Shown one piece after another: positions 6,189 through 41,937 of a DNA stretch of 42,113 nt. The stretch comes from an uncultured Eggerthellaceae bacterium (GTDB lineage Bacteria > Actinomycetota > Coriobacteriia > Coriobacteriales > Eggerthellaceae): contig CAJOIP010000013.1 in the NCBI GenBank assembly GCA_905234785.1, positions 1-42,113 of the forward strand, written 5' to 3'. The notes beneath the pieces are model-generated. The model worked only from the letters and a program-made list of their open reading frames with translations, ran no database searches and was not told the origin of the DNA. Each line of letters opens with the position of its first letter. Position 1 is the stretch's first letter. Made by a program: the position numbers and the translations under genes.

Positions 6189-6372
6189 TTGTTCGCTCTG
6201 TTTGTCCCGGGTTGCGTATTCGCTTGTCCTCGCACGCTCAGCGGCAAACATCTTGTTGTTCGCTTTCTTCCCTCCGGGCCATGTGCCCGCTTGTCCTCGC
6301 TCGCATGGCGACCTTGGTTGCTGCCATATCCGGCTGCGGAATCGCGTTCACATGGCCCGGAGGGAAGAAAGC
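6189..6372. repeat. Structured repeat with long inverted arms (copy 1) plus a degenerate half copy
   Basis: A perfect 24-bp inverted repeat (6262-6285 with 6349-6372) encloses a 63-nt core. The core words CTTGTCCTCGC and CCGGCTGCGGAATCGC recur in the copy at 41826-41937, whose arms have a different sequence. Both copies are followed by GCTACGCT. Bases 6189-6237 are a degenerate direct copy of 6256-6304, matching at about 35 of 49 positions. This fills the 315-bp gap between the GGDEF and WYL genes; no gene is seen in it. Confidence 0.8.
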
Positions 6373-36592: not shown

Positions 36593-36613
36593 CGCACCGA
36601 ACCACGATACGAG

Positions 36614-36651
36614 AAAAAAGGGGTCAGGGCACGAAATCCTGACCCTTTTTT
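36614..36651. terminator. Bidirectional terminator after telA
   Basis: The stem GGGTCAGG/CCTGACCC is flanked by AAAAAA on the left and TTTTTT on the right with a 9-nt loop. It fits termination of telA and of read-through from ilvE. Confidence 0.92.
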
Positions 36652-36656
36652 CGCCC

Positions 36657-36821
36657 TAACCTCTGCTCAAGTTGGATAACGCAGCCGATTGGCTGGAAGG
36701 AGCGTCAGCCGCTTGCGCAGGCGGTCAACCTCGCAGGGGATAAAAAGAGATGCCCGCCGAGCAGCTGTAGGCGGACACCCCTTCCAGCCAATCGGCGGGC
36801 ATATGAATAGAGCAGAGGTTA
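36657..36821 (-). other. Nested, mutually exclusive hairpin element at the ilvE 3' end
   Basis: Outer arms (36657-36668 with 36810-36821) include the ilvE TAA stop. A 17-bp perfect pair (36684-36700 with 36780-36796) competes with a terminator stem (36750-36759 with 36793-36802) that is followed on the minus strand by CTCTTTTTATCC. They share bases 36793-36796, so only one can form. Confidence 0.75.
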
Positions 36822-37856
36822 GGCGATCTTGCACACCCAACCGAACGGGTCTTCCGCGGCGCACGTCTGAATGGCCACGAGCGTTTCGCGCAGCTTCTTC
36901 ATGACCGGGCCGCTCGTCTCGGCTCCGTCGGGGAAGGTGACGTCGACGCCCTCGCCTTCCACCTTGCCGACGGGCGAGATGACGGCCGCCGTGCCGCACA
37001 GGCCGCACTCGACGAAGTCGCCGTTGAGCACTTCCTCGAACTTGACCGGGCGCTCGACGACGTTCATGCCGAGGATGTCCTTGGCCACCACGACGAGCGA
37101 ACGGCGCGTGATGGACGGCAGGATGGAATCGGTCGCAGACTGCGGCACGATCAGGTTGCCCTGCTTGTCGACGAACATGATGTTGGCGCCGCCCGTCTCC
37201 TCGACGTAGGTACGGCTCTTCGAATCGAGGTAGAAGTTCTCGGCATAGCCCTTCTCGTGCGCGTCGGTGACGGCGTACATGCTCATGGCGTAGTTCAGGC
37301 CGGCCTTGATGTTGCCCGTGCCGTGCGGCGCCGCGCGGTCGTATTCGGAAACCAGCAGCTTCACAGCCGTATCGCCGCCCTTGAAGTACGGGCCGACCGG
37401 GGTGACGAAGATGCGGAACTGGTACTCGTCGGCGGGCTTGACGCCGATAACGTTGCCCGTCGCCACCATGAACGGGCGGATGTAGAGCGTGGCGCCCGAG
37501 CCGAACGGCGGCACCCACGCCTCGTTGGCCGCGACGACCTGCTTCACGGCCTCGACGAACTTGTCCTCGGGAAACACCGGCATGACCAGGCGGCGCGCCG
37601 AATCGGCCATGCGCTGGGCGTTCAGGTCGGGGCGGAAGCACACGATGGAGCCGTCTTCGGTGGTGTACGCCTTCAGGCCCTCGAATATCTCCTGGCAGTA
37701 ATGGAAGATGCCCGCGTCCTCGGACAGCGTGAGCGTGTGGTCGGTCGTCAGGCCGCCCTCTTCCCACGCGCCGTCCTTGAAGTTGCAGACGTAGCTGTAA
37801 TCGCACGGGATGTAGTTGAAGCCGAGGTTGCCCCAGTCGAGGTCTTTCTTTGCCAC
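36819..37856 (-). CDS. ilvE: Branched-chain amino acid aminotransferase
   Basis: This 345-residue PLP enzyme (fold type IV, BCAT group II-like) interconverts Leu, Ile and Val with their 2-oxo acids in the cytosol. Conserved features are YCQEIFEGLKAY, RPDLNAQRM, the PLP lysine in GTGNIKAGLNYA (Lys184 from this start), EETGGANIMFV and CGTAAVISPV. The GTG at 37856 is chosen: AAGGAG lies 9 nt upstream, and the residues encoded before it are not conserved. A -10 box TACAAT lies at 37897-37902 on the minus strand. The 3' end carries the nested hairpin element. Confidence 0.95.
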   Translation of the reverse strand: MAKKDLDWGNLGFNYIPCDYSYVCNFKDGAWEEGGLTTDHTLTLSEDAGIFHYCQEIFEGLKAYTTEDGSIVCFRPDLNAQRMADSARRLVMPVFPEDKFVEAVKQVVAANEAWVPPFGSGATLYIRPFMVATGNVIGVKPADEYQFRIFVTPVGPYFKGGDTAVKLLVSEYDRAAPHGTGNIKAGLNYAMSMYAVTDAHEKGYAENFYLDSKSRTYVEETGGANIMFVDKQGNLIVPQSATDSILPSITRRSLVVVAKDILGMNVVERPVKFEEVLNGDFVECGLCGTAAVISPVGKVEGEGVDVTFPDGAETSGPVMKKLRETLVAIQTCAAEDPFGWVCKIA

Positions 37857-37941
37857 GGGAATCGTCTCCTTATTCGGTCGGTTTATCTGCACAACGATTG
37901 TACTCCCCCGCAGCGGCGCATGCGGTGGATTTAATGAAAGG

Positions 37942-41814: not shown

Positions 41815-41937
41815 CCCTCTTCCCGCCCCCGGAGGCGGGAAGAGGGGGTCGGGCTTGTCCTCGCCCGCATGGGCAGTGGGGCTTGCCACCATACCCGGCT
41901 GCGGAATCGCCCTCACCCCTCTTCCCGCCTCCGGGGG
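41815..41937. repeat. Structured repeat (copy 2) with three mutually pairing arms
   Basis: A local hairpin (41815-41827 with 41834-41846) follows the kinase stop by 10 nt. Its right arm is also part of a 22-bp perfect long-range arm pair (41826-41847 with 41916-41937). The core between (41848-41915) shares CTTGTCCTCGC and CCGGCTGCGGAATCGC with the copy at 6262-6372, and GCTACGCT follows the last arm. Confidence 0.82.

Follow-up and report, generated by a model that had tools for sequence, protein, structure and literature searches.

The inverted repeats behind ilvE in the genome of an uncultured Eggerthellaceae bacterium (G000) include one copy of a dispersed hairpin repeat, here named family A. 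This copy is probably a mobile, REP-like hairpin whose arms are kept matched by template switching, with adjacent host DNA copied in. The window, the whole stretch of DNA that was analysed, is 42,113 nt of contig CAJOIP010000013.1. Family A copies are insertions and, at orthologous sites, their arms change together in both bases and length. From the comparisons below, we infer template switching as the cause of this joint change and movement of the element as single-stranded DNA.

The ilvE gene (Aminotran_4, PF01063) lies on the minus strand at 36819–37892, with its TAA stop codon at 36819–36821, and the region behind it (36655–36823) contains several nested pairings. A 17 bp perfect pair (36684–36700 with 36780–36796) sits in a longer 27 nt pair (36684–36710 with 36770–36796; 89%), whose two sides, read on the plus strand, are the complementary arms of the element. 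The 36684–36710 arm is private to the ilvE site and has a counterpart in the near relative G005 (L111). An alternative 10 bp stem on the minus strand (36750–36759 with 36793–36802), part of a 25 nt pair at 76%, is followed on that strand by T5 at 36746–36742 and has four bases (36793–36796) in common with the 17 bp arm; the same shared bases and T5 are found in G005. Outermost are 14 nt arms on the plus strand at 36655–36668 and 36810–36823, 100% complementary, of which the near arm (36810–36823) contains the ilvE stop codon and the far arm is an inverted copy of the stop region that falls outside the repeat. The original prediction described the 17 bp pair, the 10 bp stem with its T-run, the four-base overlap and the TAA within an outer arm; all are present, and the pairings are far from chance. 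Compared with 200 dinucleotide shuffles, the folding energy gave z −6.92 on the plus strand and z −9.36 on the minus strand, and none of the shuffles was as low on either. Beyond the element, between convergent genes, is a two-way hairpin resembling an intrinsic terminator (36613–36652), its T-runs judged by eye.

When 36655–36823 was used to query G000, the self match was accompanied by many matches to the middle of the query, approximately positions 50–130. Placed side by side, the family A copies share two motifs, GCCGCTTGCGCAGGCGG (motif 1; plus strand, 36708–36724 at ilvE) and CCGCCGAGCAGCTGTAGGCGG (motif 2; plus strand, 36754–36774), which are conserved in the 13 aligned G000 copies and bound a core (36708–36774) set between long arms that pair within each copy. 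The spacer between the motifs, which forms the apical loop (36725–36753), is variable and at ilvE includes A5 at 36742–36746, the complement of the T5 above. The core is bulged and lies mid-hairpin rather than at the ends. The arms mostly differ among copies yet are self-complementary; some copies in another genome of the genus, G001, have arm sequence in common. A covariance model of the family, R1, matched the ilvE element at 36679–36803 on the plus strand (102.8 bits), with degenerate ends ACGCAGCC and GGCGGGCAT for the canonical GTAGC and GCGGACA; at the left end this copy has ACGCAGC where GTAGC is canonical. R1 matches are about 94–160 nt, with arms of about 25–30 bp whose average is close to 25 bp.

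The comparisons used 89 loci (88 distinct) from 103 rows, after 13 opposite-strand readings and the partial match L018 were dropped; they are the best-ranked of the match lists rather than every match in the genus. Clustering of the arms at 65% identity chained 67/89 copies into a single group, a cut-off too permissive for arms rich in G+C, and no arm-cluster count was used. The consensus hairpin from the 13 G000 copies has 36 pairs, of which 27 vary in both partners, and its covariation of 0.610 compares with 0.168 for shuffles and 0.104–0.182 for slid partners; 0/500 shuffles were as high. One core pair, X–Y, is Watson–Crick in 86/88 copies (G-C in 76, C-G in seven and A-T in three), and one of the two exceptions is a misaligned row.

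A search for other copies of the ilvE hairpin, called for in the original prediction, returned 16 copies in G000 and matches in 12/15 genomes of the genus, with 0 to 45 per genome. R1 found matches in 14/138 genomes and 3/48 genera of the family and, at stricter settings, in 7/396 genomes and 2/153 genera of the class; no match to family A was found in the plasmid and phage records searched. Thus, family A is nearly confined to one genus of gut Eggerthellaceae. Named relatives of the IlvE protein are from rumen and gut metagenome-assembled genomes, the nearest being RGIG4359 from roe deer (98%). A segment of G000 contig C71 (L008) and one in a genome of another genus (L166 in G050) are near-identical at the DNA level, including one family A copy; this likeness may reflect transfer or a misplaced contig, and both loci were retained in the counts.

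Neighbouring genes were taken from a simple gene caller, and 8/88 copies were without a called neighbour. In the remaining 80, read from motif 1 to motif 2, both flanking genes point left in 36, and they are convergent in 23, both rightward in 12 and divergent in nine. The right-hand gene ends toward the element in 59/80, commonly with its stop codon within 30 nt. Pfam supported 9/10 neighbours tested: ilvE, gyrB, greA, scpB and genes for an ammonium transporter, a methionine sulfoxide reductase, an amidase, an ABC-transporter ATPase and a PNPase-like protein. The tenth, the gene at L174, had no Pfam match.

Occupied and empty versions of the same site were found. Among 12 genomes in which the gyrB–gyrA gap was read, the element is present in G002 (L261 and L262 represent the same site), G005, G008 and G011, and is absent from the other eight; in G007, which is one of these, there is just a short gap with a ribosome binding site from stop to start. 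Behind greA, G000 has the element and G005 has 2 nt from the stop codon to the next ATG. At five sites occupied in G000 (greA, the ammonium transporter, the L174 gene, methionine sulfoxide reductase and the amidase), no family A was found in G005 by eye or with R1. Sites common to the two genomes are ilvE, scpB and the ABC-transporter gene, where the G000 copy is broken. Among 11 genomes whose stretch downstream of ilvE was inspected, only G000 and G005 have the element, and the ilvE copy was, most simply, inserted in the common ancestor of these two near species. Behind ilvE in G001 there is instead a terminator-like hairpin and then an element of a second family, family B. In G005, the orthologue of the L174 gene (L295) is followed, starting right after the stop codon, by a different near-perfect palindrome with approximately 34 bp per arm; family A occupies this position in G000. 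A further dispersed repeat, around GTCATCCTGAGCGGAGCGCGAAGCGCGGAGTCGAAGG, was seen in the gyrB–gyrA gap and elsewhere (L259 and L025, G000).

Host DNA is found inside the stems at several sites. Outer inverted repeats of at least 10 bp join the flanks beyond the modelled element in 14/85 copies, where shuffles predict 0.4, though one of these (L195) consists of the repeat and several directly prolong the arms; in the other 71/85, any such repeat is at most 8 bp long. Among the 46 copies with a called stop codon 0–60 nt away, four, representing three sites (L174, greA, and ilvE in both G000 and G005), have some or all of that codon within a perfect stem of at least 11 bp. The original prediction had suggested that a palindromic element might have captured the stop codon, and this is supported: the element is a dispersed insertion, and pairing that takes in a stop codon recurs at greA and the L174 gene. 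The greA arm, CGAGCACTAAT, comprises seven coding nt, the stop codon and one further nt, a total of 11 nt in G000; at the greA end in 10/10 relatives the longest inverted match is 5–6 nt, and shuffles reach up to 10. At the ilvE stop codon, the inverted copy is 14 nt in G000 and 11 nt in G005, both of which carry the element, and no such copy was found in 9/9 other genomes of the genus tested (longest 5–7 nt). In the near outer arm at ilvE, G000 and G005 differ by C/T at two positions, and the far arm mirrors both differences as G/A.

The clearest inverted coding end is behind the ABC-transporter gene. In G005, a perfect 40 bp arm consists of 34 coding nt, the TAG stop codon and 3 nt, repeated in inverse orientation downstream, and 26 bp of this arm is present in G000 (shuffle maxima 9 and 11). 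A synonymous difference, GAG in G005 and GAA in G000, is matched by CTC and TTC, respectively, in the non-coding arm; two separate copying events could be responsible. Eight other genomes share this protein end; the inverted match is only 6–9 nt long in seven of them, which is the shuffle level, and 13 nt long in G007. Thus, non-coding DNA has received inverted copies of protein-constrained sequence, and the match between the two has been retained. An inverted copy of adjacent DNA that is missing from relatives without the event, as template switching leaves, is present at the ABC-transporter gene, greA and ilvE. Other arrangements were seen behind the same ABC-transporter gene. In G007 (L315), a family B hairpin and half of a family A core (by eye) occur together with short stretches of the coding end in inverted form, as if several rearrangements were layered. 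The reading frame in G000 (L314; contig C15, about 59860–59980) is without the usual stop codon and continues through the broken element and its arms, and in G002 (L317) a different long palindrome, CCGTAAAAAACTCGCACG..., occurs twice after the stop codon.

Joint change of the arms was assessed in seven groups of loci with related flanks; L141/L154, related solely in their upstream genes, were not counted. The 12 comparisons, which are not all independent, gave 270 pairs that were the same, 37 one-sided changes, 27 two-sided changes with both states Watson–Crick, 36 whole-pair indels and 11 others (other doubles, bulges or one-sided indels). With one comparison taken per site, the six independent sites (L001/L111, L011/L134, L142/L145, L172/L183, L196/L198 and L164/L202) gave 139, 17, 10 and 14 in the first four classes, with one other double change and three bulges. 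Aligned pairs were the basis for counting whole-pair indels, some of which may be double substitutions. By our own arithmetic, arms mutating independently at the one-sided rate would give fewer than one matching double change. Isolated arm mismatches on the plus strand are G-T in 28 cases vs A-C in 10 (p 0.005), an imbalance not expected from plain arm correction. In the 88 family A copies, 22/48 isolated mismatches, and most of the G-T cases, set a left-arm T against a right-arm G on the plus strand, for which strand-biased mutation or a plus-strand hairpin may be the reason.

The process envisaged would begin with a hairpin forming on a single DNA strand during replication. A polymerase that switched template could copy one arm from the other, so that the arms would stay complementary, and a polymerase that passed the end of an arm would place adjoining host sequence, inverted, on the opposite side of the hairpin. 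At ilvE, such an overrun would have left the stop codon in the outer stem. Template switching has been studied in microbes and, in the sections of Monttinen and Loytynoja 2022 (PMC8794818) that concern us, is described as making reverse-complement copies and repairing stems, and is proposed to create and maintain RNA hairpins. In those sections, as is likely in family A, one event gives or repairs a perfect stem, which explains double changes; the mutations described there are in RNA genes, whereas family A is a dispersed repeat whose arms include host gene ends. Template switching explains the differing arms, the whole-pair indels, the paired changes and the copying of host DNA in one step. 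Selection on RNA explains the paired changes only.

Selection for an RNA structure in mRNA 3′ ends, affecting stability, RNase III processing or the production of a stable 3′ RNA, with broken stems selected against, is nevertheless possible, though we consider it rather unlikely. The strong covariation and the retained core pair are in its favour, as are the tendency of right-hand genes to end at the element and the excess of co-directional flanks in one orientation (36 vs 12). The original prediction had named a lack of conserved pairing in relatives among its refuting conditions; the co-variation found there passes this check but need not reflect selection on RNA. The sense RNA shows no preference for wobble pairs, its isolated mismatches being of G-U types in 10 cases and A-C types in 28, and neither whole-pair indels nor inverted copies of coding ends are expected from selection alone. 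Turnover also argues against this explanation, with 5/5 of the G000 sites compared being without family A in G005. Nothing in the window matched an Rfam 15 family at the gathering score, and a permissive Rfam search of six loci returned isrG alone (22 bits, against a cut-off of 100). Compensated pairs are also expected from selected RNA or DNA structure and are not fully separable from template switching here; as the core is conserved in both sequence and structure, the two may both act. Paired stem changes are normally taken to prove that an RNA is functional, and family A provides many copies with such changes in one genus, alongside whole-pair length changes, stems that enter coding sequence and a synonymous difference mirrored in non-coding DNA. 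The family could be used to measure how far template switching alone imitates selection on RNA, and it is a caution for covariation-based RNA discovery.

It is also conceivable, if doubtful, that family A is a GTAG REP or REPIN mobilized by a RAYT, with a tyrosine (Y1, HUH) transposase of the genus moving the element as single-stranded DNA, an explanation that can hold together with template switching. GTAGC is at the left end of 16/88 copies (control mean 3.5), most copies being without it, GCGGAC is at the right end of 21/88 (control 0), and the 12 copies with both have them at fixed distances. Y1 genes are found in 12/15 genomes of the genus, and family A lies behind genes, as reported for REPs in the relevant part of Di Nocera 2013 (PMC3733652), where REPs, including a GTAG superfamily, are dispersed and located behind genes. 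However, G000 is without a Y1 gene despite its 16 copies, the conserved part is mid-hairpin and not terminal, and 22 Y1 loci yielded no family A copy and only two weak family B matches, with other palindromes at two of three such loci inspected. Thus, no cognate RAYT flanked by the repeat was found for family A among these 22 loci or in G000. Y1 genes and family A are poorly correlated, with neither in G003, Y1 without family A in G006 and G012, and one copy without Y1 in G011. At L218 and L225, Y1 genes are set amid palindromes of other sequence, for example TGAACATCACCCC... and AGCCCAAAGAGGA....

In the parts of the literature on which this comparison draws (PMC3116915, PMC3733652), REPs and REPINs share with family A dispersed non-coding hairpins behind genes, a variable spacer and two-sided compensatory changes, the last reported for REPINs by Bertels and Rainey 2011 (PMC3116915). 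Family A has many intergenic copies, mainly behind genes, as expected of a GTAG REP, and the GTAG tag that such REPs carry at one end is present in some of its copies but missing from most. As characterized in the same parts, a GTAG REP is a palindrome of 20–40 bp, well below the length of family A matches, and a REPIN has conserved ends and a less conserved middle, whereas family A has a conserved mid-hairpin core and outer arms that mostly differ. Unlike the REPs and REPINs described there, family A has arms that extend over the stop codons and coding ends of host genes, and no RAYT was linked to it. A REPIN with two inverted, conserved terminal REPs was considered and rejected for family A, in which the conserved motifs are inside and the variable arms outside. 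As the core is mid-stem, the unit is longer, G000 is without Y1 and the 22 Y1 loci are without a copy, we classify family A as REP-like but not as a member. In MITEs and enterobacterial repeat units, the terminal repeats keep their sequence. Family A arms mostly differ among copies, in contrast to these terminal repeats; such elements are otherwise like family A in being small, non-coding, intergenic and insertional. A literature search for REP, RAYT, palindromic or quasipalindrome repeats in Eggerthellaceae and relatives returned texts whose available portions contain no description of such repeats.

Three further explanations are less probable than those above. It is improbable that the core itself signals the template switch, so that arms are kept matched, surroundings are rewritten as stop codons and coding ends of the host are taken into the arms, and changes are sometimes fed back to the gene end, perhaps with spread that needs no transposase of its own. 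Insertion of the core into the loops of existing terminator hairpins, whose old stems would be the arms, is highly improbable: the arms are indeed self-complementary, different among copies and just behind stop codons, but the empty gyrB–gyrA (G007) and greA (G005) sites are too small for a hairpin, no T-run follows the arms in the G000 copies inspected by eye, and some G001 copies have common arm sequence. With hardly any DNA present at these empty sites, an origin of the arms there from old terminator stems is excluded.

Intrinsic terminators and attenuators have a hairpin behind a gene and a T-run. The ilvE copy is like them in both respects, but it has no T-run after its long stem, and the alternative stem is not kept in family A. 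It is scarcely credible that a terminator/antiterminator pair controls ilvE or readthrough: the four common bases and the T5, retained in G005, suggest one, but no gene lies downstream of ilvE on the minus strand, a separate terminator-like hairpin comes after, and among the 86 copies whose core was readable the second stem averaged 5.21, compared with 5.22 when right flanks were permuted (167/300 permutations at least as high as observed). The doubt about attenuation already voiced in the original prediction, on the ground that no gene follows, is strengthened by this result. The flank exchange led us to reject the 10 bp stem as a family feature, T-runs in other copies having been judged by eye only. 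As mutually exclusive hairpins are not a feature of the family, attenuation is unsupported.

Family B, met in relatives, has the same layout as family A and a different core, GGCTTGGCTTCGGCTAA ... CTGCAGAATCGCC; an example is L032 4189–4299. A model of this family, R2, found matches in 12/15 genomes, including 12 in G000, 28 in G012, 22 in G003 and 141 in G001, where there are also 28 family A matches. Family A is absent from G003 and G012. In G001, family B reaches REP-like abundance and often occurs as close inverted pairs. What spreads seems to be an architecture, not one sequence. The window itself contains two family B copies, at 6261–6371 and 41826–41935 (R2 scores of 45.7 and 53.2 bits); both have long arms, and their core resembles CTTGTCCTCG...CGGCTGCGGAATCGC.
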